Shown here: positions 8,866-22,484 of the stretch, in pieces
Position numbering within the stretch: the stretch's first letter is position 1
How the letters are laid out: each line of letters begins with the position of its first letter
Notes under the pieces: generated by a model
Database searches by the model: none
Seen by the model: only the letters and a program-made list of their open reading frames with translations
Told to the model about the DNA's origin: nothing
Program-made: the position numbers and the translations under genes
Assembly: GCF_005771675.1 (NCBI RefSeq)
Contig: NZ_VAJM01000003.1
Span: forward strand, 248,001-312,000
Direction of reading: 5' to 3'
Length of the DNA: 64,000 bases
Source of the DNA: Hymenobacter jeollabukensis
GTDB lineage: Bacteria; Bacteroidota; Bacteroidia; Cytophagales; Hymenobacteraceae

Positions 8866-9235
8866 GCATTGCACGGCGAAGTGAAGCCGGGCTGGCTGAT
8901 GTTCAAACGTTGTCCGGTTTTGGGAAAGGCTCAATCCGCGTTTATACCGTTATGGGAATAAGTAGCAGGCGCTGCGCAGGGGTAGAAACGGATTTGCGTA
9001 ATTTTTTTCGGGTTAAAATCAGGTTAAAGGTCAGGCTGTCAAGGTAGTTGTAATTATCGGTGCGAAGTGTTGGCACGCAGGGCAGTGCACGGCCGCAAAA
9101 TTGTATACCGCCGGTTGTCAGCAAGCATTTTACCCATTGAGGCGGAGCGCTGACTGCCACCTACCCACCCTTATTAGAAGTCGGTGGCTCGGACCAACAA
9201 CTGTTCCGGACCCCGGCCGATGATGCCACCTATTG
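8866..9235. other. intergenic region upstream of the Crp/Fnr gene
   Basis: About 370 bp without a convincing gene. It is less GC-rich than the flanks around 8990-9060 and presumably holds the promoter of the regulator at 9236. No clear TAnnTTTG box or operator palindrome was identified. Confidence 0.4.
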
Positions 9236-9946
9236 ATGAAACAAGTACCCTCTCTCGCGCCCACCAACTGCCAGGATTGCCCGCGCCGTCAGCAGTCGTT
9301 GCTTGGCTGCTGCCAACTGGCCGAACTGAACCTGGTGTCGACCACCAAAACCTTTCAGACCTACCAGAAAGGGCAGGTGATTTTCCGCGAAGGCAGCCGG
9401 CTCAATAGCCTCTATTGCATCTTCGAGGGCAAGGTGAAGATGACCAAGACCGGCGGCGACGGCAAAGCCCAGATCATGCGCTTCACCCGCGAGGGCGACA
9501 CTATGGGCTTTCGGGCCCTGATGAGCGACGCGCCCTACGCCTGCTCGGCCGTGGCCCTGGAAGACTGCGTGGTGTGCATGGTGCCTCGCACCGACGTGCT
9601 GAGTTTGATGGAGCAGAACACGCAGTTTACCCGCGCCCTGCTGCGCCACCTCACCGACTCGCTCAACGAGACGGAAACGCGCATGCTGCACATGACTTAT
9701 AAGCCCGTGCGCGAGCGGCTGGCCGGGGCCCTGCTGCTGCTGCACCGCACCTTCTGCGTCGATTCCGGCAACTGCGCTATTCCCATCTCGCGTGAGGATT
9801 TGGCCTCGCTCATCGGCACGGCTACCGAAACGGCCAGCCGGCTGGTGTCGGAGTTCAAGGAAGAAGGCCTGATTGCCACCAAGGGCAGCAAAATCACCAT
9901 CCTGAACGCCGCCACGCTGACGCAGATTTCGACGCAGTACGATTAA
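9236..9946 (+). CDS. Crp/Fnr-family transcriptional regulator
   Basis: The 236-aa protein has an N-terminal cyclic-nucleotide-binding-like beta-roll (about residues 35-130, with YQKGQVIFREG and LYCIFEGKVKMTK), a dimerisation helix and a C-terminal winged helix (ISREDLASLIGTATETASRL, about 180-200). The extreme N-terminus carries C12-x2-C15 and C25-C26, a cysteine arrangement that might bind an Fe-S cluster or respond to redox as in Fnr, although the spacing differs from E. coli FNR. The ATG at 9236 is preferred to the TTG codon immediately before it. Monocistronic, with a terminator downstream. Its targets cannot be deduced. Confidence 0.9.
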   Translation: MKQVPSLAPTNCQDCPRRQQSLLGCCQLAELNLVSTTKTFQTYQKGQVIFREGSRLNSLYCIFEGKVKMTKTGGDGKAQIMRFTREGDTMGFRALMSDAPYACSAVALEDCVVCMVPRTDVLSLMEQNTQFTRALLRHLTDSLNETETRMLHMTYKPVRERLAGALLLLHRTFCVDSGNCAIPISREDLASLIGTATETASRLVSEFKEEGLIATKGSKITILNAATLTQISTQYD

Positions 9947-10005
9947 GGGCAGCGTCGGCGGGCGGGGCTCAACTGCCGCGGTCGAATGTGCTTGATACCC
10001 AATAG

Positions 10006-10037
10006 CAACGGGCGCTCCGGAAACGGGGCGCCCGTTG
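10006..10037 (+). terminator. rho-independent terminator
   Basis: Arms CAACGGGCGC and GCGCCCGTTG, followed by GCGTTT. It ends the Crp/Fnr gene. Confidence 0.8.
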
Positions 10038-10344
10038 GCGTTTAAGCAACTTGACAGCTACGCAAGTAGGACTATTTTGGATTCATGAAAAGCTAGTTTT
10101 TGATGAGAATCAAAAACGAAATTGACGGCGGTCATTTTTTTAGGCGACTGTTTGCAGGAGTTTTGTAAAAGCAAATCGGCTGATTGATAGGTGGTTCACG
10201 CCGGGTGTAAAGCTCGCTTGCGGCAAAGGAGCGCAGCCAGCGCCGCAAGCAGCCTACCCGGCCACCAGCCAGTCTTAAAGCTTGATAAAATTGAATTTGC
10301 AAAAGTTGACTTCACAAACCCTCACATAAACAGTTCCCTCCCCA
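10038..10344 (+). other. upstream region of the first Roadblock-like gene
   Basis: About 300 bp. Positions 10065-10170 are AT-rich (for example TTTTTGATGAGAATCAAAAA, itself an imperfect inverted repeat) and probably contain the promoter. No coding sequence was seen. Confidence 0.4.
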
Positions 10345-10725
10345 ATGGCTTACTCCGTAAACAACCCCGCTGGCAAAATCGTCCAGAACGTCATCGACGA
10401 GCTGCCCACCCTGATGGCTATTGCCGTGGTGGACGTGACTTCCGGCATGTCGCTGGCCTCGCACACCAACTCGCCCAACATCAACCCCGACACCGCCGCC
10501 GCCTACAACACGGAAGTGGTGAAGCAGAAGCAGAAGGCTATGTCGGCCCTGAAGCTGACCGGCGAAATCATCGAGGATATCCTCATCACGCTCTCGAACC
10601 AGCTGCACCTGATCAAGCTGAACAACACGGGCAACAAGTTCATCTACCTGGTGGTGAACCAGCGCGACACCAACCTGGCCATTGCCCGCGAAGTGCTGCG
10701 CAGCCACTCGGCCGCCCTCAACTAA
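10345..10725 (+). CDS. Roadblock/LC7-like protein, paralogue 1
   Basis: The 126-aa protein resembles Bacteroidota proteins with a Roadblock/LC7-like fold: LMAIAVVDVTSGMSLASH forms the first beta hairpin, EVVKQKQKAMSAL the helix, IEDILITLSNQLHLI and FIYLVVNQRDTNLAIARE the last strands and helix. Roadblock proteins such as MglB and LAMTOR subunits act as dimeric platforms or activators for small Ras-like GTPases; no GTPase gene lies nearby. Two paralogues follow on the same strand (10955-11389 and 12179-12607). The family call comes from pattern recognition; the role is inferred. Confidence 0.7.
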   Translation: MAYSVNNPAGKIVQNVIDELPTLMAIAVVDVTSGMSLASHTNSPNINPDTAAAYNTEVVKQKQKAMSALKLTGEIIEDILITLSNQLHLIKLNNTGNKFIYLVVNQRDTNLAIAREVLRSHSAALN

Positions 10726-10954
10726 TACCAACGGTGCCTCGGCCGGTGCCTGCGCAGGGCCGGCCGACCACCGCGGTGCGCTCCGAATACCCTTCCTGAC
10801 CTCTACCAGCTCACATAACTGCCGCACGCAAGCGGCGACGCTCGGGTAGTCTGCGGTGGCTGAAGCATCAGCTGTGGCGGACTACCCGGTGGCGCTTGCC
10901 CACCGTGCCGGCGGCCCGAATGACTGCCCCGCCCGGGGCCGAACGCGAGGCTGC

Positions 10955-11389
10955 ATGAACATTCCTTTTCTCCAGAAGCTAACCGGCCCCGCGCTGCACC
11001 AGGTGGTGGGTGCCGGCCCCGCCAGCGCCGAGCGCCACGCTGCCGAAGGCGTGCTGCACCGCGTGCTGAGCGGCTTGCCCGAGCTGCTGGCCGCCGCGGT
11101 GGTGCGCATCGAGGGCGGGCAGCTGCTGGCCAGCTACACCACGGCCCGCGAGCTGAACCCCGGCAAGGTGGCCGGCTTCAACGCCGAGGTGGTGCGGCAG
11201 CAGCGGCTGGCCCTGGCCGCCCTGGGCCAGCCCGACGAGGCGCTGGAGGATATTCTCATTACGCTGCGCACCCAGCTGCACCTGCTGCGCGTGCTGGCCG
11301 ACGGCCGGCGCGTGCTCTACGTGGCGGTGGACTGCCGCGACACCAACCTGGGCATTGCCCGCGACGTGCTGCGCACCTGCGAAGCCTGA
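10955..11389 (+). CDS. Roadblock/LC7-like protein, paralogue 2
   Basis: A 144-aa divergent paralogue of the preceding protein. It shares LPELLAAAVVRIEGG, FNAEVVRQQRLALAAL, LEDILITLRTQLHLL, YVAVDCRDTNLGIARDVL. It carries an extra N-terminal segment of about 30 residues (starting MNIPFLQKLTG) and is much richer in Ala/Leu/Arg than paralogue 1. The ATG at 10955 is chosen because the frame upstream gives low-complexity sequence unlike the family. It sits 80 bp before a small membrane protein gene, probably in the same transcription unit. Confidence 0.7.
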   Translation: MNIPFLQKLTGPALHQVVGAGPASAERHAAEGVLHRVLSGLPELLAAAVVRIEGGQLLASYTTARELNPGKVAGFNAEVVRQQRLALAALGQPDEALEDILITLRTQLHLLRVLADGRRVLYVAVDCRDTNLGIARDVLRTCEA

Positions 11390-11468
11390 GCTGCCCGGCG
11401 GTGGGTGGAGCGGGTGGAGGCAGCAGTCAGATACTGTATTCTACCCTTTCTCCATTCCAATTTCTCAC

Positions 11469-12140
11469 ATGAGACTAACCGCTTCTCCTTTTGATCCGCA
11501 AACGGGCGACCTGCTGCCCGTGTACCGCGACGCCTACCTGCGCGGTGATTTGAGCCCGGCTTCGGCCCGCGCCGTGGAGGCTTACCTGCGCCGCGACGCC
11601 GACCAGGCCCACGACACGCTCACCCGCTGGCACCAGATTCAGCCCGAGGCCGAGGTGGCCGCGCCGGGCTGGGTTGGCCGCCAGATTCGGCACATTCAGG
11701 CCGAGCCGGCGCGCTTCCGCCGCCGCGCCGCCGGGCTGGTAACCTGCGCCGCCCTGGTGGGCGGGATGGTGTTTGCCGGCACCAATCTGCCCAACAACAA
11801 CCTGCCGACCGACAACCTGCCCACGGCCGAAACCGTCGAGCTGGTGGCCCCGGCCACTGCCGACGCTGCCAGCGCCATTCGCATGGTGACGGTGAAAGGC
11901 CGCATTCTGGGTCAGGATGGTCAGCCCCTGGTGGGCGCTACCGTGCTGCAGAAGGGCACGCGCTTCGGCGTGAGCACCGATGCCTCGGGCAGCTACGCCA
12001 TGCGCGTGCCCGCCGGCCAGCAGACGCTGGTGTACGGCTACGGTGGCTACCACGACCAGGAGCTGCAGGTGCAGAACGCGGCCCCGGCCAACGTAACCCT
12101 GTCGCCCCGCGCCAAGCAGCGCCGCTGGTTTCTTTTCTAG
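11469..12140 (+). CDS. membrane protein with CarboxypepD-reg-like domain, 223 aa
   Basis: The first ~85 residues are soluble and helical (LSPASARAVEAYLRRDADQA), resembling the cytoplasmic part of anti-sigma-like proteins but without zinc-ligand cysteines. A single transmembrane helix follows (about residues 90-110), then an Asn/Thr/Pro linker and a C-terminal carboxypeptidase-regulatory-like beta-sandwich (VKGRILGQDGQPLVGATV to GGYHDQELQV). Such domains are common in TonB-dependent receptors and envelope proteins of Bacteroidota. It lies between two Roadblock-like genes, 38 bp before the third, suggesting a shared envelope-linked process. Role unknown. Confidence 0.7.
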   Translation: MRLTASPFDPQTGDLLPVYRDAYLRGDLSPASARAVEAYLRRDADQAHDTLTRWHQIQPEAEVAAPGWVGRQIRHIQAEPARFRRRAAGLVTCAALVGGMVFAGTNLPNNNLPTDNLPTAETVELVAPATADAASAIRMVTVKGRILGQDGQPLVGATVLQKGTRFGVSTDASGSYAMRVPAGQQTLVYGYGGYHDQELQVQNAAPANVTLSPRAKQRRWFLF

Positions 12141-12178
12141 CCCGCCGCCGCGACGCGCCCGGGCCTAACGCTTACTCC

Positions 12179-12607
12179 GTGAAACCCAAGTCGTATCGTA
12201 AGAAAACCGCTACCAAACATGCCCGCGTGGCCGCCCAGCAGGCGGAAGTCACGGCCGGCGAGGTAGTGCAGCAGGTGCTGGCCGCGTTGCCCGAGCTGCT
12301 GGCCGTGGCCGTGGTGGATGCCCGCACGGGCACCAGCCTGGCCGCTCATTCCAACTCCGCCGACATTGCCCCGGCCACCGCCGCGGCCTTCAACGCGGAA
12401 GTGGTGCGCCAGAAGCAGAAGGCCCTCACGGCCCTCAACCTCATCGACGAGCACATCGAGGACATCCTGATTTCGCTCTCGAATCAGCTGCACCTGATGC
12501 GCCTCGCCGACGGGGGGCGCAAGTTCATTTACCTCGCCGTCAGCGCCCACGATACCAACCTGGCCACGGCCCGGGAGGTGCTGCGGGTGCAGGCCGGCAC
12601 GCTCTAG
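12179..12607 (+). CDS. Roadblock/LC7-like protein, paralogue 3
   Basis: A 142-aa paralogue of the protein at 10345, more similar to it than to paralogue 2: LPELLAVAVVDARTGTSLAAHSNS, FNAEVVRQKQKALTAL, IEDILISLSNQLHLM, FIYLAVSAHDTNLATARE. A Lys/Arg-rich N-terminal extension (KPKSYRKKTATKHAR) is unique to this copy and could contact nucleic acid or membrane. It starts with GTG, 38 bp after the membrane protein gene, and is probably cotranscribed with it. Confidence 0.7.
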   Translation: MKPKSYRKKTATKHARVAAQQAEVTAGEVVQQVLAALPELLAVAVVDARTGTSLAAHSNSADIAPATAAAFNAEVVRQKQKALTALNLIDEHIEDILISLSNQLHLMRLADGGRKFIYLAVSAHDTNLATAREVLRVQAGTL

Positions 12608-12675
12608 TCTCATGGCGCGGCGTCCCAACCCGCCGCGCTCCTTTTTCCTGCTCCGGCGGCCCCGCTGCCGCCCTG

Positions 12676-12736
12676 CGCCAACGACGCGCTCAGCCCCGGA
12701 TTTGGGTAGACCGGGCGCTGGGCGCGTCGTTTGGCG
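12676..12736. terminator. hairpin between convergent units
   Basis: Arms GCGCCAACGACGCGC and GCGCGTCGTTTGGCG surround a loop of about 30 nt. Placed between convergent genes, it could end both the Roadblock unit (+) and the isonitrile cluster (-). Confidence 0.65.
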
Positions 12737-12747
12737 TTGAGGCTGGT

Positions 12748-13908
12748 TTAGTAAGCTTGGCCGTGGGTTTGCTTCAGAATGAAGTCTGTTAGGAAGGGCA
12801 GGCGCCGCAGCACCTGGATGCCGGCGGAAGTCAACTGGGGCTGACCGAAAACCTGGTGAATCAGGCGGCCGGCGGTGATGCGCAACCTCAGCAGCTGCCG
12901 CCACTGCTGCGTGTACTGCTCTTCCAGCGCGGCGCGCGAGATACGGCCGGCCAGGAAGTCGAGCAGCAGCGGGTGGAGCAGGAAGCCCGCGTTCATGCCC
13001 ATGCTCATGCCGTTGCCGCAGAGCGGGGCAATGGTGCCGGCCGCGTCGCCGAGCATCAGCACGTGCTGGTCGACGGTGGACCGCTCCCGGAAGGTTATCT
13101 GGGAAATAACCACGGGCGTGAAGTCGCCGCGCTGGGCCGCCTCGATGTAAGGGCGCAGCAGCGGGTTTTGCATGAGCACCTGCCGCTCCATCTCGGCCAC
13201 GCTGTTGCCGTGGGCCCGCAGGTTGCGCAGGTCGCTGATGTAGCTGCAGTTGGTGAGGCCGCCGGGCAGGGGCGAGAGGCCGCAGTACCCGTCGCGGAAG
13301 TTGTGCATTTCCACCGTGGCGGCGGGAAAGTAGTCGAGCTGCAGGTGGTACTTCACGGCCACGAACTGCCGGCCCTGCCGGCTTTCGGCCAGGAAGGGCC
13401 GCTTGAGCTTGCCGTCGAGGTTGGCGTGCTTGCCCCAGGCGCCGCACACGGTCCGGGCCCGGAAAGTGGAGCCGGTGCTGGTGGTGAGGATAAACTGCTC
13501 GTCGGCAAACGTCACGTCGGTGACCTTGGTGCCCTCGTGGATGCTGGCCCCGTGCCGGGCGGCCAGCCGGGCCAGCAGCGGGTCCAGCTCGTAGCGGGTG
13601 ATGCCCACGCCGCCGATATCGAGCCGGTGGTGCAGAGCCACGCCGCTGGGCGACGAGAGGGTGAAGCGCGTCATCACCGGCAGGTTCATCTCGGCCAGCG
13701 GCACCCCGAGGCGGCACAGGAAGTCGTAGTTCTCCATCGAAATGTACTCGCCGCACACCCGGTGGAAGGGGTAGGTTTCCTTCTCGAACAGCACCACCCG
13801 GCGGCCCGACTGCGCCAGCTGAATGGCCAGCGTCAGGCCCGCCACGCCCCCGCCGACGATGGCGCAGTCGTAGACTTCGGCCGCTGTTTTATCGGTGAGG
13901 CTACTCAT
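12748..13908 (-). CDS. FAD-dependent oxidoreductase (geranylgeranyl-reductase-like), last gene of the isonitrile cluster
   Basis: This 386-aa flavoprotein has an N-terminal Rossmann motif (VGGGVAG, residues 18-24), a PFHRVCGEYIS block and a distal GDAAGTIAPLCGNGMSMGM motif. This is the pattern of the geranylgeranyl reductase / aromatic-ring hydroxylase group. The WxWxIP signature of flavin-dependent halogenases is absent, so halogenation is unlikely. The start codon overlaps the stop of the dioxygenase-UbiA gene by 4 bp (ATGA), indicating translational coupling. It probably tailors the product of the fused UbiA protein, either by reducing a prenyl chain or by hydroxylating or epoxidising the product; this is inference. 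Confidence 0.85.
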   Translation of the reverse strand: MSSLTDKTAAEVYDCAIVGGGVAGLTLAIQLAQSGRRVVLFEKETYPFHRVCGEYISMENYDFLCRLGVPLAEMNLPVMTRFTLSSPSGVALHHRLDIGGVGITRYELDPLLARLAARHGASIHEGTKVTDVTFADEQFILTTSTGSTFRARTVCGAWGKHANLDGKLKRPFLAESRQGRQFVAVKYHLQLDYFPAATVEMHNFRDGYCGLSPLPGGLTNCSYISDLRNLRAHGNSVAEMERQVLMQNPLLRPYIEAAQRGDFTPVVISQITFRERSTVDQHVLMLGDAAGTIAPLCGNGMSMGMNAGFLLHPLLLDFLAGRISRAALEEQYTQQWRQLLRLRITAGRLIHQVFGQPQLTSAGIQVLRRLPFLTDFILKQTHGQAY

Positions 13909-15677
13909 AGCGCAGCTTGCTTTTTGCGGTTCCGCAGCATCCGCACGGCAAACAGCACGCCCGCGGCCAGCAGGCTGGTGTAGGCCGTAGCATTCAGCCA
14001 CTGCGGTACTTTCATGCCGTTTTCCTTGAGCACGGTGGTAGCGGCCGGCTCGTCTTTGGGCGCAATCTGCCGATTGATGGCCGCGTAGCCCCGCGTGACG
14101 TGCACCAGCGCGCCGACCAGCGGCAGCAGGCCCAGGTACGCAGCCCGGGGCATTTTTTCGCTGCGGTACAGGTGCACGAAGGAGCCCAGCACCACCGCCC
14201 CGGCGCCCACCACGGCCGTCTGGGCCAGGCGCAGGCTGCGGTGCAGGCCCAGGGCTACCACCATCGTCTCGATGCCGGCGGCCTGGTCCTCGGTGTAGTC
14301 CTCCGCGTTGTTGAGCAGGATGACGGCCATCTGCAGCAGGCCGTAGGCAGCGGCCAGGGTGAGAACCGGACGGCGCGGGAAGTGCGTAACGAGGCTGCCG
14401 GTGTAGGCCATCGGCCCGAAGAACAGCACGGCCCACAGCGCCGGCAGCTGCCACAGCCCCCGCGACTTGAAGTGCAGCGGCTTCCACGAGTACTGGAAGC
14501 CCAGCGCCCAGCCGATGACGGTGAGCGGCACGAACTGCCAGCGCCCGGTGCGGCGCGTGAGCCAGAGGCTGATGAGCACCGTGCCCGCCACCGAGGCCCG
14601 CATCTGCCAGCGCACCCCGGCCTCGCCCAGCTCGAAAATGGCGTTGGACAGGTGGCTTTTGTAGATGGCGTCGAGGCGGCGGTCGGCGTAGGCGTTGACT
14701 AGGTCGCCGAAGTTGAACAGCAGGTAGATGCCGCCCAGACCCACGTACAGCTCCGGCCGGCGCAGGAAGCTTCGGTCCTCGGCGCTGAGCAGGATGGGAA
14801 TGACGAAAATCGGAATTTCGGCCAGCAGAAACTCGGTGCGGCGCAGGGCTTTGCTGTTCTTGAGGAAGCGCCGCAGCCCGCCGTCCTGGGGCCGGGCCAG
14901 TAGATTAATGCGCTGAATGTGCCGCTCGTTGGCCTGCAAAAACGCCTCCCGGCCGTGCAGCAGCGCGTGGTTGTCGGCCAGCACGATGTCGCCGCTCTGC
15001 CAGCGGTGGGTGTAGAACACCTCGGGCGCGTACAGGGCCGTCTGCAATTCCTGAATCAGGGCGGCCTGCTCGTCGGCCGAGGCGCCCAGCACCTCCACCG
15101 ATACCGGGTTCAGGTCGTGCACCGGCTCGGCGAAGCGCATGGTCGGCTCGCCCGTAACGGGGTGGGGCTGCACCAGCCGCTGGGTGATGACGCCGCCGTA
15201 GTGCACGATTTTCTCGGTGCGGTAACGCAGGGTGGCTTTTTCCCAACGCCGCCGCTGCGCGGGTTGGGCGCGGGCCAGGGCGCGGGTGGTGTCAGCGAAA
15301 GTGGTGCCGCCGTGGTCCTCGGGCCGCGGGGCCAGCAGGCACTGAAAGAAAATCAGGTACGGAATGCGGCCCACAAAGGCGCCGTCCCAGTGCAGGGGCA
15401 CGGCGGCCGGGGTGTAGAGGTAGTTCTTGGCATCGGCCTTCACCTTCAGCTCGTTGATGGCCCCGAACGGCCACTGCAGCGGCTCCCCGAGCTGCTGGGC
15501 GTAGAGGGCAAACTGCGGCTTGTCGAACAGCTCGAACCCGCGGAAAATCAGGATGCGGTGCTCTTGCACCCAGCTTTCGATCTGCGCGGCGGGAATATCG
15601 GCAATGGTGCGGCCGGGTTCGGCGGCGTGCACGAGCAGGCCGAAGGGCTGTTGGGGTTCGAGGAGGTAGGTGGACAT
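13905..15677 (-). CDS. PvcB/IsnB-like Fe(II)/2OG dioxygenase fused to UbiA prenyltransferase
   Basis: One uninterrupted 590-aa reading frame with two enzymes. Residues 1-265 are a TauD/TfdA-type dioxygenase with the iron facial triad H96-x-D98 (LHWDGAF) and distal His241 (NHALLHGREAF), plus Arg256 for 2-oxoglutarate; the LHWDG context resembles PvcB/IsnB, which oxidatively decarboxylate amino-acid isonitriles to vinyl isonitriles. Residues about 280-585 are a UbiA-type polytopic prenyltransferase with N328-x3-D332-x3-D336 (NAYADRRLD), YSWKPLHFKSRG and D460-x3-D464 (DYTEDQAAGIET). All expected catalytic acids are present. It lies 178 bp after a TetR-isonitrile synthase gene and overlaps the downstream flavoprotein gene by 4 bp. 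The prenyl acceptor is unknown. Confidence 0.88.
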   Translation of the reverse strand: MSTYLLEPQQPFGLLVHAAEPGRTIADIPAAQIESWVQEHRILIFRGFELFDKPQFALYAQQLGEPLQWPFGAINELKVKADAKNYLYTPAAVPLHWDGAFVGRIPYLIFFQCLLAPRPEDHGGTTFADTTRALARAQPAQRRRWEKATLRYRTEKIVHYGGVITQRLVQPHPVTGEPTMRFAEPVHDLNPVSVEVLGASADEQAALIQELQTALYAPEVFYTHRWQSGDIVLADNHALLHGREAFLQANERHIQRINLLARPQDGGLRRFLKNSKALRRTEFLLAEIPIFVIPILLSAEDRSFLRRPELYVGLGGIYLLFNFGDLVNAYADRRLDAIYKSHLSNAIFELGEAGVRWQMRASVAGTVLISLWLTRRTGRWQFVPLTVIGWALGFQYSWKPLHFKSRGLWQLPALWAVLFFGPMAYTGSLVTHFPRRPVLTLAAAYGLLQMAVILLNNAEDYTEDQAAGIETMVVALGLHRSLRLAQTAVVGAGAVVLGSFVHLYRSEKMPRAAYLGLLPLVGALVHVTRGYAAINRQIAPKDEPAATTVLKENGMKVPQWLNATAYTSLLAAGVLFAVRMLRNRKKQAAL

Positions 15678-15709
15678 AGGTAAGGCGGTATAGCGGAAAA
15701 AAGCAGGAC

Positions 15710-15760
15710 GTCATTCCGAGCGAAGCCGAGGACCCGAAGGTCGGTGTAGCCAAGCTCGCG
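15710..15760. repeat. dispersed intergenic repeat, copy 1
   Basis: Begins GTCATTCCGAGCGAAGCCGA and continues with CCGAAGGTCGGTGTAGCCAAG. A related copy lies at 58916-58966. The start also resembles the arm of the inverted-repeat element at 24927. It occupies the gap between the two main genes of the isonitrile cluster. Confidence 0.6.
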
Positions 15761-15855
15761 TGCTGCTGCCGGAGCGGTAAGCCAACGCGGGTATTACCGG
15801 CCAGCAAGATGCGGCGCTCTGGCTGGATATTCCGTGCAGTATTTGGCCACGAGGT

Positions 15856-17529
15856 TCAAGATTCCGGCCGCGTCACGAAATGGCTCGGCCGGCCGTCCTG
15901 CGCCACCAGCGTGGCGCCCAGCGCCTCGGCCTGCTGCCGCTTCATCAGCAGGTAGTCGTTGGGGCGGAGCAGCACCACGCCGTGCCAGGGCGTGAGCCAG
16001 TTGTCCACAGCGCGGGTGATGCGCAGGCCGATTTTATCGGCGTGTGGGTGCTGGGGGTGGATGCTCAGGCGCAGCGCGTGCGGAAACTCCTGGGCCAGCA
16101 GCCGCGTCCAGGCGTTGCTGCGCCGAATGACCTCGTAAGCCACCGCCTTGCTTTCCTCCTTTACCCGGCTTTTGCTCTTCTCCGGCGCCAAGGCCTGCCC
16201 GTCCTCGGCCACGAAGCGGTGAATGCCGTTGAACATGGCCCGCTGGCTGGCCGATTCGCGCACCCGCTGCTGCAATTCGGCCAGCGGCTCGGCGTACTCC
16301 GCCGTTATCCACTGCCGGGCCGCGTCAAAGTCGGTGGTTTCGATGAGGTCTTCCAGGTTGACCACGTCCAGGTCGCGGGTGCCGAGACGCTCGATGAGCT
16401 GCTTCAGGGCGTGGTTGTAGGCTGACACTTCCTCGTCGCTGACCTGCACCAGGTCGGCAAACACCCGGCCGTCGGCGCAGATGCTCAGGCGCGCGCCGGG
16501 CGCGTACACCTGCCGGATGTCGTCGCAGAGACTTTGCAAAGTGGTCAGCGCAATTTCCTCGCCCAGGTCGGGCAGCGGGCCCAGCACCTTCTGCCGGTTC
16601 GGCGACTTGGCCGGGAAGGCCGGCAGAATCAGATGAATTGGCTGGCCCTGACTGATGAAGTACTGCAGCCGCGGCAGGTGCAGGCCCAGGCACTGCGCGC
16701 AGGGCTCGGCGGCGCAGCCCTCCGAATTCGTGGCCTCGTCGCCCTCCAGCACTTTGCGGTGCCGCATAATCAGCTTTATCACTTGCCGGGCTTGGTCGAA
16801 ATCAGCCGGAGTCAGCTGCAGGAACTGCTCGACCACCTGGCTGACTTGGCCAAGGAGCAGCGGCGCGAGCAGGCTACCCAGTTGCGGCGCAGCCACGCTC
16901 AGGCCGGCGCTGATGAGGTCGAGGGCCTGCTGCGTGGCCGCGCCGTCGGGGCTGCGGTCGAGCAGGGCCAGCAGCAGCACGCCCCAGTGCGCGGCGTAAA
17001 GCGAGCGGACCAGGGCCGGCTGCACCTCGGGCGCAGGGGCATCGGCGGCACCCTGCACCACGGCCTCGAACAACGCCAGTCCGCGCAGACGAATGCTTTC
17101 GGTGTCGGGGCTGAGCACGCCGGCGGGCGCCTCGGCATCGATGAGGGAGGCGGCCAGGGCGCGCAGGGTAGGGCGGTGCGGGGCCAGCAGGCGGAGCTTC
17201 AGTTGCAGCAGCGCCCGGAACCGCTCGGCCAGCGGGGCGGCGGGTAGGTCGGCGGCGCGGGCTTCCAGCTCGTCGTGGATGCGCTGGTAGAGGCCGAGTA
17301 CGAAGTCGGTTTTCGAGCCGAAAAAACGGTAAGCCTCGGCCAGCGGCTGCCCGGCCGCAGCGGCAATATCGGCCACGGTTACCTGGTGGTAGCCGCGCTC
17401 GGCAAAGAGGCGCAGGCCGGTATCAAGCAGGCGCCGCCGGGCGGTGGCGGCAGCCCGGTAGGCGGAATCGGGAGGAGTCAAAATAGCAATGCGGATACGG
17501 GGACCGAAATGGTACCCCAATATCCGCAT
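15856..17529 (-). CDS. TetR regulator domain fused to isonitrile synthase (PvcA/IsnA/DIT1 family)
   Basis: Residues about 28-75 are a TetR helix-turn-helix (LFAERGYHQVTVADIAAAAG, then AEAYRFFGSKTDF), followed to about 225 by a helical TetR effector-like domain. Residues about 230-557 match the PvcA/DIT1 isonitrile synthase family: FPAKSPN (305-311), KVLGPLPDLGEE, YAPGARLSICADGRVFADL, NGIHRFV, AYEVIRRSNAW, RLSIHPQ (487-493) and TPWHGVVL (513-520). Known members convert Tyr or Trp plus ribulose-5-phosphate to an isonitrile. The domains are in one frame with no stop. The ATG at 17529 lies inside a large inverted repeat; a TTG at 17481 (residue 17) would give a conventional TetR N-terminus and leave that repeat upstream. 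An enzyme carrying its own DNA-binding domain could autoregulate. Confidence 0.9.
   Translation of the reverse strand: MRILGYHFGPRIRIAILTPPDSAYRAAATARRRLLDTGLRLFAERGYHQVTVADIAAAAGQPLAEAYRFFGSKTDFVLGLYQRIHDELEARAADLPAAPLAERFRALLQLKLRLLAPHRPTLRALAASLIDAEAPAGVLSPDTESIRLRGLALFEAVVQGAADAPAPEVQPALVRSLYAAHWGVLLLALLDRSPDGAATQQALDLISAGLSVAAPQLGSLLAPLLLGQVSQVVEQFLQLTPADFDQARQVIKLIMRHRKVLEGDEATNSEGCAAEPCAQCLGLHLPRLQYFISQGQPIHLILPAFPAKSPNRQKVLGPLPDLGEEIALTTLQSLCDDIRQVYAPGARLSICADGRVFADLVQVSDEEVSAYNHALKQLIERLGTRDLDVVNLEDLIETTDFDAARQWITAEYAEPLAELQQRVRESASQRAMFNGIHRFVAEDGQALAPEKSKSRVKEESKAVAYEVIRRSNAWTRLLAQEFPHALRLSIHPQHPHADKIGLRITRAVDNWLTPWHGVVLLRPNDYLLMKRQQAEALGATLVAQDGRPSHFVTRPES
17489..17529. promoter_or_regulatory. 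candidate TetR operator (41-bp imperfect palindrome)
   Basis: Outer arms ATGCGGATA (17489-17497) and TATCCGCAT (17521-17529) are perfectly complementary. Inside are GGGG/CCCC and ACC/GGT pairs around an AT-rich centre near 17508. It sits at the 5' end of the TetR-isonitrile synthase gene, where an autorepressor would be expected to bind. If translation starts at the TTG at 17481 the palindrome is non-coding. No standard -7 box was found next to it. Confidence 0.55.
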
Positions 17530-17581
17530 TACCTGGTATCTGGCGGGCGCCGTGGGAAGGAAAATGCCCGGCCGAAGCTGT

Positions 17582-17986
17582 TTACGAAACCGTCAGCGTG
17601 GTATTCCGGCTCGGGAACGAGGCGTCGAGCAGGGCGCCCAGGTTCAGGACTTTGTGGCGGGCTTCTTCGGCTTTGGGGCCGGCGAAATTTTCGCGCACGG
17701 CGGCGTCGAACAGGTTTTGCCAGCGGCGGCAGTTGGGGCCTTCCAGCGGCAGGCCCAGGTCGCTGGACGCGGCGGACTGGCGGCCGGTTTTGGGCCCGAA
17801 GAGGGCGGTGCTCCAGAAGTTGTAGAGCGTGAAGAGGTGATGCGGCCAGTGTACGCGGGCCACCGCGTTGAAGGCGGGGCTGAGCACTTCATCCTGATTG
17901 ACCTTCTCGCAGAACGTATCGACGAGCGTTTTCACGTCGGCTTCCCGCGTGATGTCGGTAAGAGCAGAGGCTGGAGCGTTTGTCAT
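17582..17986 (-). CDS. group III truncated-hemoglobin-like protein without the expected proximal His
   Basis: The 134-aa protein has the group III truncated globin layout: DITREADVKTLVDTF (B helix), VNQDEVLSPAFNAV, HWPHHLFTLYNFWSTALFG (E helix) and RRWQNLFDAAVRENFAG (G helix). In group III globins the proximal His lies about eight residues before the conserved Pro-Leu that precedes the F-x-RW motif. Here that stretch reads RQSAASSDLGLPLEGPNCRRW, with no His. Heme may be lost or coordinated differently. It lies 52 bp upstream of the TetR-isonitrile synthase gene on the same strand, and isonitriles are strong heme ligands, so a sensing, binding or self-protection role is conceivable. Confidence 0.75.
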   Translation of the reverse strand: MTNAPASALTDITREADVKTLVDTFCEKVNQDEVLSPAFNAVARVHWPHHLFTLYNFWSTALFGPKTGRQSAASSDLGLPLEGPNCRRWQNLFDAAVRENFAGPKAEEARHKVLNLGALLDASFPSRNTTLTVS

Positions 17987-18038
17987 AGAGCGAATGAGCT
18001 GGGGACCGAGATACGGCCGCGGTGAGGAACAGGTTGGG

Positions 18039-18069
18039 CTAAGATAGCGCAATCGATTGCACGGCCAAA
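18039..18069 (-). promoter_or_regulatory. promoter of the globin/isonitrile unit with central palindrome
   Basis: On the minus strand TTTG (-33) and TATCTTAG (-7, one or two mismatches to TAnnTTTG) are separated by 19 bp. The spacer contains the perfect palindrome GCAATCGATTGC (18049-18060), a good position for a repressor. The expected leader is about 45 nt. It may drive the whole minus-strand cluster. Confidence 0.55.
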
Positions 18070-18148
18070 TGATTGTTGTCATTTATCCTTGATTATCAGT
18101 GTTAATTGCAAGGAAATAAATCGGGCGCGAAGTCAATAACCGGTAAAC

Positions 18149-18184
18149 AAAAACGGCCCAACTGGAGCAGCCGGGCCATTTTTG
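18149..18184 (-). terminator. terminator of the glycosidase gene
   Basis: Minus strand: ATGGCCCGG...TTGGGCCGT hairpin followed by TTTTTG, about 25 bp after the stop at 18209. It separates the glycosidase from the isonitrile cluster. Confidence 0.8.
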
Positions 18185-18208
18185 GGTGGTAACGGGCGCG
18201 TCGCCGCG

Positions 18209-20992
18209 CTAAGGCAGGCGCGTCAGGCGCAAATGGTCGAGCATGGCCTGATTTATTTCGCCGTTCATGTTTTCGTTGGCCGCATCGAAGCGCAGCGTGA
18301 AAGTGCTGCGGCCTTTGGGCAGGCTTACCTGGATGGGGTTGGAATAGCCCCAGTCCGACCATTCGTCCACGCCGCGCTGGGGCAGCACTACCAGGCCCAG
18401 GGCGCGGTCATTGCGGTAGAGGGTGCGCAGGGCGCATTTGTTGCTGGTGTTGATGGGGCCGTTGCCGTTGGCGTAGCGAAAATCCAGCGCGAAGGAGCCC
18501 GCCGCCGGCAGGTCTACCTGGAAGGTCAGCTCCCGGTTCACGGTGCGGCTGATTTCCACGAAGCCCTTGCCCGTGTAGCCCTTATAGGGCTTGGTCGACT
18601 TTTTGGCGGCCGTTTCCAGCTGCACGTAGCGCCGGAAAGGCTCGGCCTCCACCGGCAGCGGCTCGGAGGCAAAGCCCTCAAAGCCCGCAGCATCCACGGC
18701 CACCACCTGGTACGCGGCGTAGGCCGTGGGCTTGGGCACCACGAACTCTGGTTCGGTGGTGCGGGCCGCAAATTGTCCGTTCAGCAGCACCTGGTAGGCC
18801 TTGGCGCCGGCCACCGGCGCCCAGCTGAGGCGGCCGGCCGCGTAGCGCACCTCCGGCGTCATCGGCGCCACGTGGTGGGGCACTTTGTGCTGCGTGGAGG
18901 GCGGCAGCGGCTCACTGGTCAGCTCGATGCGGACGGCGTGCGGGCCGGTGGTAGCGGCGGGCAGGCGGGCGTCGGGTAAGGGTTGGCCGTCCAACGTGAT
19001 GCTGCGGATTTTATTACCGAAGCCGGTCAGCTCGATATCCAGCGTGGCCTGGCGGTAATGGAAATTGGTGAGGCGGCGGGTGCCCCGTAGCGCCTGGGGC
19101 ACGAAGGGCTCGAAGGTCAGCCCGGCCACGTCGTAGCGCAGGCCGAACAGACCCTTGTACACCAAGCCCAGCGCACCGGAGAGGCTCCAGAGCATGTTGC
19201 TGCTGTTGACCTGGGTGCCGGCGTAGTCGCCGTTGGAGGCCACGAAGTTTTCCTTATTGGTCAGAAACAGCGCCGCCGGCCGGCTCACGGCGGCCACGCT
19301 TTCCATAAAGGCCGTTTCGTTGCCGGCTTTGGCGGCGGCCAGTCCCCAGAAGCTCTGCACGAAGGGCCACACAGCGTTGTTGTGGTAGGGCGGGATGCCC
19401 GGCGTCTGCGGGTACACGTACGGAATGCCGAAGTCCATGACGGGCATGTTGGCAATGACCTGCTGCGGCTGTTTGACCATGTTGTACAGCACCGCCAGGG
19501 CCGTACCTAGGGCTTCGGTGCGCGGCGCCGGCAGCAGTTCATAGAGCACGGAGGTGCGGCCGTATCGGTACGCCGCGAAGGCTCCGCGCTGTTCCTGCCA
19601 GAAAAATGCCTGGATACCGCGTCGCCCGTAGACGCCGCGCTGGTACGCCATCCAGTCTATCGACGACCCAGGGGAGCTGTCTGATGCTGGCTCCAGACGC
19701 TTCGCCATCTGGGCCAACACAAAATTAGCCTGCGCATGGACTACCGTCGTGCTCAGGGAAGTCGACTGGTAGATGTCCACCGGCTGCATCCACTTCGGGT
19801 ACGTTTGCTCGCGCCAGTCCAGAAACGACGTTTCGCCGTGCACCAGACCGCTGCGGCGTTGGTCGTAGATGTCGTTCTGCATGTCCTCCTCAATGGACTT
19901 CCGCACGATGGGGTACACCCGGCGCAGCCAGGCCTCGTCGCCGGTGCTGAGGTAGACTTCCCAGGCGGCCACGGCCCAGATCATGCGGTCGGTGGAGCAG
20001 GGGTAAGCGCCGCCGGTGCCGGTGTCCTGGATGATGCGGCCGTCGGCCGATACCTTGCGTAGCAGGCTGGTTTTGGCCACTTCGGGCTGAATGGCGGCCT
20101 GGGCCAGAATGATCGAGTAGCTGATGTCGCGCGTCCAGACGCCCGCCCACTCCTGCCCGGTGCGGAAGGTACCGTCGGGCTCCACGGCGCGCCGGGCTTC
20201 TTCCAGGGCCAGGTTGTAGAGCGCGTCGAAGAGCGGATAATCGGAGTGATACTGCGGCAGGTCGCGCACGTCGAGGCTGGCTTTCCAGCTTTGGGCGGTA
20301 GTTTTCTGCGCGTCGTGGGCGTTGAGCACCACGGTGGTTTCGTAGATGCCGTTCCCGTCGGGGTCAGTCAATTCCAGCCCGGGCTTGTTGATGAGGTTGT
20401 CGAAGTCCCAGCTCAGCGGGGCGGTGTTGCCGGCCACCAGCACGTGTTTCAGGTCCTGCTGGTACAGCTTCTGCCCGTTGTAGAGCTGGTAATAGCCCTG
20501 CTGCTTGAACGCGGCCAGCACCGGGCGCAGGTCCAGACGGATCTTGAGCGGTGTGTTGGGCGCCAGGTAGGTTTCGGGCGGCACCGGCGCGGGGCCCACG
20601 TACTGCCGGCCGAATACGATGAGCGGCGTTTCCAGCCCCGCGGCCCCGGCGCGCGGCAGGGCTACAAATACGTGGTCCTGGCCGGGCGGCATTTCGTTGT
20701 CCTTGCCGTTGAGGCTGAACTTAAAGCTCACCCGCGGGCTCTGGAAGGCGTTGGCCGGGCTCTGGTAGTTCGAGGTCAGCTCGGTGCGCGAGCGGGCGCG
20801 GGCCACGTATGGACCCTGCACCACGGAGTCGCGGTACACGGTGTAGGCGGCCGATTGCCACACGGGCCCAGCCGGGGCAGGGGGCGGGGTGGTGGCCGCG
20901 GGTTGGGTGGTCGATTTCGGCATCTGGCAGGAACCCGCCACGAGCAGCGGCACCAGCAGCAGGCGCAGCGGGAAAAACGGACGACAAAGCAT
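18209..20992 (-). CDS. six-hairpin glycosidase-like lipoprotein, 927 aa
   Basis: It starts with a hydrophobic signal ending LLVAGSC, compatible with lipoprotein processing, and a Thr/Pro linker. Residues about 45-250 look like an N-terminal beta-sandwich. About 265-690 resemble an (alpha/alpha)6 barrel: GQEWAGVWTRDISYSIILAQ, YPCSTDRMIWAVAAWEVYLSTGD, SFLDWREQTYPKWM, HNNAVWPFVQSFWGLAAAK. This layout is shared by GH63/amylo-glucosidase-like and GH15-like clans; the exact CAZy family and substrate are not assignable by eye. The last ~200 residues resemble Fn3 and carbohydrate-binding sandwich modules. The ATG at 20992 is preferred over a TTG five codons upstream. Probably a periplasmic or surface glycosidase. 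Confidence 0.75.
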   Translation of the reverse strand: MLCRPFFPLRLLLVPLLVAGSCQMPKSTTQPAATTPPPAPAGPVWQSAAYTVYRDSVVQGPYVARARSRTELTSNYQSPANAFQSPRVSFKFSLNGKDNEMPPGQDHVFVALPRAGAAGLETPLIVFGRQYVGPAPVPPETYLAPNTPLKIRLDLRPVLAAFKQQGYYQLYNGQKLYQQDLKHVLVAGNTAPLSWDFDNLINKPGLELTDPDGNGIYETTVVLNAHDAQKTTAQSWKASLDVRDLPQYHSDYPLFDALYNLALEEARRAVEPDGTFRTGQEWAGVWTRDISYSIILAQAAIQPEVAKTSLLRKVSADGRIIQDTGTGGAYPCSTDRMIWAVAAWEVYLSTGDEAWLRRVYPIVRKSIEEDMQNDIYDQRRSGLVHGETSFLDWREQTYPKWMQPVDIYQSTSLSTTVVHAQANFVLAQMAKRLEPASDSSPGSSIDWMAYQRGVYGRRGIQAFFWQEQRGAFAAYRYGRTSVLYELLPAPRTEALGTALAVLYNMVKQPQQVIANMPVMDFGIPYVYPQTPGIPPYHNNAVWPFVQSFWGLAAAKAGNETAFMESVAAVSRPAALFLTNKENFVASNGDYAGTQVNSSNMLWSLSGALGLVYKGLFGLRYDVAGLTFEPFVPQALRGTRRLTNFHYRQATLDIELTGFGNKIRSITLDGQPLPDARLPAATTGPHAVRIELTSEPLPPSTQHKVPHHVAPMTPEVRYAAGRLSWAPVAGAKAYQVLLNGQFAARTTEPEFVVPKPTAYAAYQVVAVDAAGFEGFASEPLPVEAEPFRRYVQLETAAKKSTKPYKGYTGKGFVEISRTVNRELTFQVDLPAAGSFALDFRYANGNGPINTSNKCALRTLYRNDRALGLVVLPQRGVDEWSDWGYSNPIQVSLPKGRSTFTLRFDAANENMNGEINQAMLDHLRLTRLP

Positions 20993-21137
20993 AAACAAGC
21001 GGCGCAAATAACGCTGCGGTGAAGCTACGCAACGCCACCGGCTTCGACTCCGGTACCCGCATTTTTCGCCCCGGCTTCACCCTGCGGCCCCGATGCCCGT
21101 AAGCTTCCGCGGCGGTTCATTCAGCCGCCTTTTCACG

Positions 21138-21629
21138 ATGGCTTCTTCCTCGCCCTTTTGGCAAACCCTCGGCCTCGGCGCCGTGGCCGGCATGCGCTCC
21201 ATGACGGCCCCGGCCCTGCTCAGCAGCGCCCTGCGCCACCATCCCTCAGGCCGCCTCGCCCACTCGGCCCTGAGCTGGCTGCAAACGCCCGCCGCGGCCA
21301 ACACTCTGAAAGCTTTGGCCGGCGCCGAAATGGCCAGCGACAAACTGCCCAACATGCCCGACCGCACCGCGCCGCCCGTGCTGGCCGGCCGCGCCCTGTC
21401 GGGGGCTCTCATCGGGGCGGTGCTCTATAAAACTAACCGGGGCAGCCTGCTCAAGGGCGCCACCGTGGGTGGACTGGGCGCCGTGGCCGGCTCCTTCGCC
21501 GCGCTCTACCTGCGCAAACTCACCACCCAGCGCACCCCGCTGAAAGAGCCCTGGGTGGGCCTGCTGGAAGATGTGCTGACCGTGGCCACCGGCAAAGCCG
21601 TGCTCGGCAGCCACCAGCCGAGGCAATAG
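21138..21629 (+). CDS. DUF4126-family membrane protein
   Basis: 163 aa. The GAVAGMRSMTAPALLSSAL start, LAGAEMASDKLPNMPDRT and LAGRALSGALIGAVLY are characteristic of DUF4126, a small integral membrane family of unknown function with about four hydrophobic segments and glycine-rich turns. The ATG at 21138 puts the conserved block at the N-terminus; the longer frame adds 15 residues unlike the family. Convergent with the LytTR regulator gene, with a repeat hairpin between the stops. Confidence 0.8.
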   Translation: MASSSPFWQTLGLGAVAGMRSMTAPALLSSALRHHPSGRLAHSALSWLQTPAAANTLKALAGAEMASDKLPNMPDRTAPPVLAGRALSGALIGAVLYKTNRGSLLKGATVGGLGAVAGSFAALYLRKLTTQRTPLKEPWVGLLEDVLTVATGKAVLGSHQPRQ

Positions 21630-21631
21630 TG

Positions 21632-21705
21632 AATGAGCGAGTGAGTGAATGAGTGATTCTCGTTCATACAAATCACTCACTCACTCGCTCGCTCATTCAC
21701 TCATT
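21632..21705. repeat. GAGT/ACTC tetranucleotide inverted repeat (bidirectional hairpin)
   Basis: The left arm is an imperfect array of GAGT/GAAT/GAGC units (21632-21657) and the right arm (21672-21705) is its near complement, ATCACTCACTCACTCGCTCG and so on. It fills the 78 bp between two convergent stop codons and would fold into one long hairpin in either transcript. Confidence 0.75.
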
Positions 21706-21707
21706 GA

Positions 21708-22484
21708 TTACCCCTCCAGCCAGCGGCGGAAATCGGGCGTCTGGGCGGTGCTGGTGGTCAGCGTTACGTCGGGTAGGGGGCGCAGCTTCACCAGCAGGCG
21801 GTTGTTGAAGTAGGGCTCTACCTTCTCCACGAAGCCGATGTTGACCAGCTCCGAGCGGTTGAGGCGGCCGAATTGAGCCGGGTCGAGCTGGCGCTCCAGC
21901 TCGGTGAGCGTGCCGCTGAGCGGGTAGCGCGTGCCCTGCCGGTCGATGGCAAACACCACGCCCTCGTCGGCCTGCAGGTACACCACGTCTTCTACTGGCA
22001 GAATGTAGAGGCTATTGCGCTGGCGTACCGAGAAGCGCTGCCGGTAGGCGGGCGCGGCGGGGCGCAGGGCCTGGCTGAGCTGAGCTAGCACCTCGGCGCT
22101 CAGCCCGCCGGCCGCTGGGGTCAGGCTGCGGCGCAGCTGGTGGTACTTGTCGAGCGTATGGCCGAACTGCTCGGCAGTGAAGGGCTTGAGCAGATAGGCA
22201 ATGCCGTTGACCTGAAACGCGGGCAGCAGAAACTGGTCGTAGGCCGTCACGAAGATGATGGGACAGGTCACCTGCACCTGCTGGTAGAGGGCGAATACGT
22301 TGCCGTCGAGCAGCTCGATGTCCGAGAAAATCAGGTCGGGCATGGGGTTTTCGGCAAACCAGGCCAGGCCCTTGGCAATGCTGCGCACCACCTGCACCAC
22401 CTGCGCGGCCGGGTCGTGCACGTTCAGGTACTGCACCAGCTGCCGCGCCGACAGCTCTTCGTCTTCGATGACGAGCACGTTCAT
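21708..22484 (-). CDS. LytTR-type response regulator
   Basis: 258 aa. A receiver domain (residues 1-120) with acidic pocket E7/D8, phosphoacceptor D55 in FSDIELLDGN, Thr in VTAYDQF and Lys in LLKPF is followed by a LytTR DNA-binding domain (about 150-258: FSVRQRNSLYILPVEDVVYL, NRSELVNIGFVEKVEPYFN). It is encoded 3 bp downstream of its partner kinase, a classic LytS/LytR-type pair. Targets are unknown; no LytTR-type direct-repeat operator was found nearby. Confidence 0.95.
   Translation of the reverse strand: MNVLVIEDEELSARQLVQYLNVHDPAAQVVQVVRSIAKGLAWFAENPMPDLIFSDIELLDGNVFALYQQVQVTCPIIFVTAYDQFLLPAFQVNGIAYLLKPFTAEQFGHTLDKYHQLRRSLTPAAGGLSAEVLAQLSQALRPAAPAYRQRFSVRQRNSLYILPVEDVVYLQADEGVVFAIDRQGTRYPLSGTLTELERQLDPAQFGRLNRSELVNIGFVEKVEPYFNNRLLVKLRPLPDVTLTTSTAQTPDFRRWLEG

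Follow-up and report, generated by a model that had tools for sequence, protein, structure and literature searches.

To our knowledge, the pathways to paerucumarin (pvc) and rhabduscin (isn) contain no UbiA enzyme and use other tailoring genes. In the biosynthesis of hapalindoles, ambiguines and welwitindolinones, a vinyl isonitrile is known to be prenylated (PMC4236562). Two types of isonitrile-processing oxygenase have been distinguished: enzymes that form vinyl isonitriles (PIsnB type) carry Lys or Arg at position 107 and Asn or His at position 188, and those that form isocyanoacrylates (PvcB type) carry Leu and Cys at these positions. As single changes at 107 or 188 left the product unaltered, these residues are a correlate only (PMC9467999). 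Here, we describe a locus from Hymenobacter jeollabukensis, in a stretch of 64,000 nucleotides (the window; contig NZ_VAJM01000003.1, positions 248,001 to 312,000), in which a TetR regulator is fused to a PvcA-type isonitrile synthase, a PvcB-like oxygenase is fused to a UbiA prenyltransferase, and a flavin adenine dinucleotide (FAD) enzyme is encoded beside them. We hold with moderate confidence that these genes form a cassette that regulates itself and makes a prenyl-tailed isonitrile in the membrane.

Two fusion proteins and their conserved motifs

A first-pass annotation of the window had proposed an isonitrile-prenyl cluster of four same-strand genes at 12748-17986, and the minus strand indeed holds all four of the listed open reading frames (ORFs), which encode a globin-like protein, TetR-PvcA, TauD-UbiA and the FAD enzyme. 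The TetR-PvcA gene (15856-17529, minus strand) encodes a TetR domain at residues 34-78 (PF00440, 45.4 bits; cut-off 24) and an isonitrile synthase (PvcA/IsnA) domain at residues 289-537 (positions 15919-16665), which reaches 265.7 bits on PF05141 (cut-off 26.4) over profile positions 2-268 of 273. Residues 268-551 match the PvcA crystal structure 3e59 (E 2e-70, 241 bits), and the TetR structure 3c07 matches residues 19-203, the second half of the TetR fold included. The predicted fusion of a TetR regulator with an isonitrile synthase is thus borne out, and so is the family membership of the C-terminal half of 15856-17529, on which the annotation had staked its proposal. This is the only PF05141 protein of its genome.

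The TetR-PvcA homologues begin about 14-17 residues inside the listed start (ATG 17529). The homologue at locus L037, for example, begins M-T-P-P, where the window reads TTG-ACT-CCT-CCC; therefore, TTG 17481 is the likelier start by comparison with relatives, giving a protein of 541 residues. ATG 17529 falls within an interrupted palindrome of 41 bp (17489-17529, minus strand; 9-bp arms, 23-bp spacer) that immediately precedes the likely TTG start codon. This palindrome may be an operator, as a weak lead, because 9-bp inverted repeats are frequent in the window (about 0.5 per 260 bp). An operator common to all loci was considered and rejected: the palindrome is kept in the sister species only (L035, 40 of 41 bases), and the remaining 16 family loci gave no match to it.

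Homologous loci were collected from 18 genomes of the same family, the window included, and from two distant genomes of the class, and both fusions are present as one open frame in all 20. Therefore, it is unlikely that either is an assembly artefact; the single stops flagged in some copies sit at the ends of those genes. In a tree of PvcA domains (28 rows), the 20 fused copies group together with modest support (89/83) and with long-branch warnings, so that the TetR fusion probably arose only once. Of 14 plasmid records that match TetR-PvcA, the 12 from outside Hymenobacter match from residue 232 onward only, without the TetR part. Both Hymenobacter plasmid copies are labeled in RefSeq as 'L-tyrosine/L-tryptophan isonitrile synthase family protein'. 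The linker that separates the TetR half from the PvcA half carries a C-x4-C-x2-C motif and, close by, a His (window 16675-16716, minus strand); this motif could bind metal. A C-x2-C occurs in this linker in 10 of the 20 fused copies, both distant ones among them, and is missing from the other ten; a similar Cys motif is seen in a Burkholderia PvcA (L052).

The second fusion (13905-15677, minus strand) joins a TauD/PvcB-like iron/2-oxoglutarate oxygenase to a UbiA prenyltransferase, as the annotation had stated. The oxygenase half spans residues 27-257 (positions 14907-15599; PF02668, 123.4 bits, cut-off 27) and matches the structures 7tcl (E 5e-54) and 3eat, which is PvcB (E 1e-51, 179 bits). 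The UbiA half spans residues 303-533 (positions 14079-14771; PF01040, 56.2 bits, cut-off 34.2). All three families that the annotation had named for a profile search, the isonitrile synthase, TauD and UbiA families, are therefore present above their Pfam cut-offs.

In PIsnB, H101, D103 and H250 bind the metal and R265, together with W74, binds the substrate carboxylate (PMC9467999). The metal ligands, the carboxylate Arg and its Trp partner are conserved in all 20 copies, those of the family and the two distant ones alike, with roles assigned by alignment to the published PIsnB residues (H250 and R265 counted by hand). In window numbering, the corresponding H96, D98, H241 (metal) and R256 (carboxylate) are invariant in alignment A1 and in both distant copies. 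The residues that follow product type behave otherwise, since position 107 is Val in 12, Ile in 7 and Thr in 1 of the 20 fused copies and position 188 is Ala in every one; in addition, the ring-pocket residues M105 and Y106 of PIsnB are replaced by Ala and Phe throughout. At the level of sequence, the fused PvcB-like enzymes are a third type. In the UbiA half, both Asp-rich motifs (residues 328-336 and 456-464) occur in all 18 family copies, and in the two distant copies they take the forms NxxxDxxxD and NxAEDxxED. Compared with five other UbiA proteins of its own genome, this half is at best 27% identical over 180 residues (E 7e-4; L057).

A discrete cassette and its distribution

Isonitrile synthases of family PF05141 were found in 18 of 200 genomes of the Hymenobacteraceae (two of six genera), in 8 of 390 genomes of the order and in 2 of 395 genomes of the phylum, the latter eight and two all belonging to the same family. 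The TauD-UbiA fusion occurs in the same 18 of the 200 genomes. A pattern scan returned 14 loci, all titled Hymenobacter, and two cassettes lie on Hymenobacter plasmids (pHsw1 and a plasmid of strain DG01); these loci belong to the 18 and are counted once. The alignments A1, A2 and A3 hold 15, 14 and 15 rows, the loci of plasmid records and the stretches taken by place being left out of them.

The neighborhood survey that the annotation had suggested shows the three enzyme genes linked in the fixed order TetR-PvcA, TauD-UbiA, FAD enzyme at 18 of 18 family loci. Among the flanking genes, up to about 9 kb on each side, no family is shared by more than 5 of the 18 loci. From this constancy of order and lack of recurrent neighbors, the three genes are probably a mobile, and in any case a discrete, cassette. 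One FAD gene copy, that of the L039 strain, is broken by an in-frame stop while the other two genes of that cassette are open; it was omitted from A2 but included in the count of 18. A further genome (G199), which has the FAD gene on a 3.4-kb contig and gave no PvcA or TauD-UbiA match, was left out of the 18. The annotation had also described the FAD gene (12748-13908, minus strand) as coupled to its neighbor by a 4-bp overlap. This holds in the window; however, at the other 17 loci the genes are separated by approximately 33-393 bp, with gene starts picked by script.

When 395 genomes of the class were searched with a TauD-UbiA profile, four copies came up, two of them in other families. In these two distant genomes, a TauD-UbiA protein (47% identity) follows a TetR-PvcA protein (40-42% identity over nearly its full length), and one of the two gene pairs overlaps by a single base, so that both fusions co-occur in three families of the class. 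All four fusion domains were recovered by Pfam at the distant locus L072. No match to the FAD enzyme was present in the 20 kb examined near the two distant loci. Because these two families have the two fusions but no FAD gene beside them, the core as read from the sequences is the pair of fused genes, and the FAD gene is an add-on of the version in the family of the window. Further genomes of the two families contained the TauD-UbiA fusion in 0 of 12 and 0 of 34 cases. Directly after the cassette in L072 (10954-12135) lies a gene for an eCIS_core-domain protein (41.3 bits), and an ORF at the other distant locus (L071, 301-768 in the numbering of the reverse complement) encodes a product that looks like a contractile-tail tube protein.

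The globin-like gene (17582-17986, minus strand) probably lies outside the cassette. Its product, named a truncated globin by the annotation, matches the group III truncated haemoglobin structure 2ig3 (E 9e-5); its score against PF01152, however, is 13.7 bits, below the cut-off of 21. The annotation had counted this gene as part of the cluster, and we do not retain it as a core member, since it adjoins the cassette at only 4 of the 18 loci and lies 5 kb away at one more (it is the one flanking family that reaches 5 of 18), and no globin match was found in the 20 kb examined near the two distant loci. Globin and cassette stand together in the window, L035, L036 and L048, where they share a downstream gene that by eye resembles a dihydrolipoamide acyltransferase; descent from one site can therefore explain the presence of the globin. 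L048 has two globin-like copies.

No Rfam family exceeded its gathering score within positions 9000-22000, sigma-70-type promoters numbered 0 against 0.5 expected in shuffles, and terminators 3 against 3.9 expected. On the plus strand, three ORFs at 10345-10725, 10856-11389 and 12179-12607 have the pattern EDILI(T/S)L..QLHL in common and appear to be paralogues.

A possible route to a prenyl-tailed isonitrile

With an isonitrile synthase linked across loci to a PvcB-family oxygenase and to a UbiA domain that has both Asp-rich motifs, the prenylated isonitrile put forward by the annotation is the natural reading. From the same features we infer a chemistry, a substrate, an order of steps, a mode of regulation and a biological role. 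The PvcA half would convert an aromatic amino acid to its isonitrile; a phenol is a usual acceptor of UbiA enzymes, and therefore tyrosine is the more likely substrate. The PvcB-like half would then desaturate the isonitrile to a vinyl isonitrile or an isocyanoacrylate, and the UbiA half, in the membrane, would prenylate the ring. Fusion of these two halves may serve to channel an unstable isonitrile directly to the site in the membrane. In the family of the window only, the FAD enzyme, which is related to those of type III polyketide (phenolic-lipid) operons, would act last and oxidize the ring; a catechol or a hydroquinone is the probable outcome. The TetR half could sense the amino acid or the isonitrile and repress its own gene; fused to the enzyme that opens the pathway, it would let this enzyme report on its substrate or product.

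As to biological role, the product may bind metal or act as a defensive membrane lipid. An isonitrile of a pvc cluster with a dihydroxylated ring, 2-isocyano-6,7-dihydroxycoumarin, binds iron (PMC5109203), and a fungal isocyanide synthase is raised by low copper (PMC9381783). More speculatively, the cassettes might specify a Bacteroidota class of membrane-anchored, prenyl-tailed aryl isonitrile lipids, ring-oxidized in Hymenobacter and switched by TetR, with PvcB-UbiA as a third functional type of PvcB; we offer this wider proposal as a tentative one. If the reading is right, isonitrile biosynthesis would be placed in the Bacteroidota, and lipid-tailed isonitriles would be a new way of putting a metal-binding group into a membrane. 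We know of no description of such a molecule, an isonitrile lipid bound to the membrane that binds metal or resembles a quinone. The two-gene core is small enough for expression testing.

The role of the FAD enzyme bears on whether the prenyl tail, rather than the ring, is modified. This enzyme belongs to the geranylgeranyl-reductase/aromatic-monooxygenase superfamily and exceeds the curated cut-offs of PF01494 (49.5 bits) and PF01266 (54.3 bits). UbiA enzymes and reductases are paired in chlorophyll and archaeal lipid pathways, and the FAD gene has a UbiA gene as its neighbor here; moreover, its best NCBIfam match is the geranylgeranyl reductase superfamily (TIGR02032, 106 bits). With the rest of the pathway unchanged, an enzyme that reduces the double bonds of the tail would yield a saturated isonitrile lipid; the annotation had called the flavoprotein reductase-like and had suggested that the prenylated isonitrile is then reduced or oxidized. 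However, this score is below the cut-off of 158.8, and the nearest relative in the same genome (45% identity), which adjoins ORFs that resemble, from their sequences, a type III polyketide synthase (PKS) and a methyltransferase, reaches nearly the same value (101.7 bits). The match is thus unspecific, and the geranylgeranyl reductase call was dropped as evidence. The best solved matches of the enzyme are halogenases and monooxygenases, and its gene is missing where both fusions occur in other families. Tail reduction therefore strikes us as unlikely. Since the reductase model does not separate the enzyme from its PKS-linked paralogue, we favor an aromatic hydroxylase, and oxidation of the aromatic ring of a prenylated phenol appears the more likely role. 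Four plasmid relatives of the FAD enzyme, out of 37 records, were compared: those of Paracoccus and Psychrobacter lie beside an annotated type III PKS and a methyltransferase, that of Agrobacterium beside a methyltransferase only, and that of Bernardetia beside neither. A hydroxylase has been reported in such type III PKS operons of Streptomyces (PMC9927152, PMC8086630), and for the FAD enzyme of such an operon in Planctomycetota, a passage of PMC10896814 states the role as open. The only PHROGs match of our enzyme covers its nucleotide-binding end alone.

Several results weigh against a prenyl-tailed isonitrile formed in the manner described. The NCBIfam model for L-tyrosine isonitrile synthases (NF045653) gives 258.7 bits, far below its cut-off of 600, and so does not fix the amino-acid substrate. 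The annotation had expected a vinyl isonitrile from PvcA and PvcB, and both families are indeed present; however, residues 107 and 188 of the fused enzymes fit neither the PIsnB nor the PvcB type, so that vinyl isonitrile or isocyanoacrylate cannot be forecast from them. The UbiA half is nearest to the chlorophyll synthase and MenA models yet falls under every NCBIfam cut-off, and a search of solved structures with its sequence gave no significant match, the best being UBIAD1 (E 0.07). AlphaFold models of TauD-UbiA and of the FAD enzyme are poor (mean predicted local distance difference test, pLDDT, 47.2 and 48.5, respectively), and no operator common to the loci was found among the 18 of the family. 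In addition, UbiA enzymes can also use phosphoribosyl pyrophosphate (PRPP), and the one encoded beside a Burkholderia isocyanide synthase probably does so.

This last point raises the possibility that the UbiA half transfers phosphoribose, as in the synthesis of arabinose donors, or cyclizes a terpene, the isonitrile being decorated in some other manner. A Burkholderia stagnalis plasmid cluster does pair a PvcA-PvcB-type fusion with a phosphoribosyltransferase-related UbiA, a DprE1-like gene and a short-chain dehydrogenase/reductase (SDR). In our cassette, however, the UbiA half scores best, if under cut-off, on the chlorophyll synthase and MenA models, while phosphoribosyltransferase models are absent from its matches; furthermore, no SDR or DprE1-like gene is linked to it, and its FAD enzyme comes from another family. 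We regard this alternative as improbable. It is also conceivable, but quite unlikely in our judgment, that the isonitrile is consumed on the way and that the end product is an ordinary prenylated phenol or quinone. Isocyanoacrylate hydrates readily (PMC9467999), the hydrophobic character of the fused enzymes at positions 107 and 188 is nearer to that of the isocyanoacrylate (PvcB) type, and the Ala at 188 is closer in character to the Cys of these enzymes. However, beyond the cassette genes no enzyme family accompanies more than 5 of the 18 loci. An intact isonitrile that carries a prenyl tail is the reading that we prefer.

Comparison with described pathways

The annotation knew of no described pathway of this composition. 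None was found here, although a prenylated vinyl isonitrile is in itself no novelty, as the biosynthesis of hapalindoles, ambiguines and welwitindolinones shows (PMC4236562), a precedent that the annotation does not mention. In the open-licence PMC texts searched, isonitrile together with Hymenobacter or Bacteroidota, and isonitrile synthase together with Bacteroidetes, gave no match (the term isocyanide was not searched with these names). Texts that matched isonitrile, UbiA and biosynthetic each named isonitrile only once, and among the matches listed, none reported a bacterial TetR-isocyanide synthase fusion in its title or abstract.

The cassette shares with the hapalindole-type clusters an isonitrile synthase, an IsnB desaturase and, if our reading holds, isonitrile prenylation. 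Those clusters are cyanobacterial and consist of separate genes, with many extra genes and unfused regulators. Furthermore, their prenyltransferase P1 is described in PMC4236562 as ABBA-like and without a (N/D)DXXD motif; the cassette has a UbiA domain instead. The paerucumarin and rhabduscin pathways have the PvcA (241 bits) and PvcB (179 bits) families in common with the cassette, the metal ligands of the oxygenase being kept, and differ from it in the selectivity residues of that enzyme.

In the plas2 cluster of Burkholderia stagnalis, PvcA- and PvcB-family proteins are likewise encoded near a UbiA gene and a FAD enzyme. There, however, PvcA is joined to PvcB and not to TetR, and the UbiA protein is related to decaprenyl-phosphate phosphoribosyltransferase and accompanied by a DprE1-like gene and an SDR. 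The plasmid stretch concerned (L053, 4193-16741) holds an isocyanide synthase, the PvcA-PvcB-type fusion, a gene resembling a sugar-binding transferase, and the UbiA, DprE1-like and SDR trio; its product is possibly a pentose-bearing isonitrile.

Operons of a type III PKS, a methyltransferase and a FAD enzyme, as in hierridin hidABC and srsABC, are akin to the cassette in that its FAD enzyme is 45% identical to one in a like operon of its own genome, a likeness drawn through this paralogue and not through HidB or SrsC. These operons supply a polyketide head group and involve no isonitrile. Set against all of these systems, the isonitrile synthase call is not new, as RefSeq already names the plasmid copies so. 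As far as found in Bacteroidota genomes and plasmid records, what is new is the linked pair of fusions, PvcB-UbiA with TetR-PvcA.

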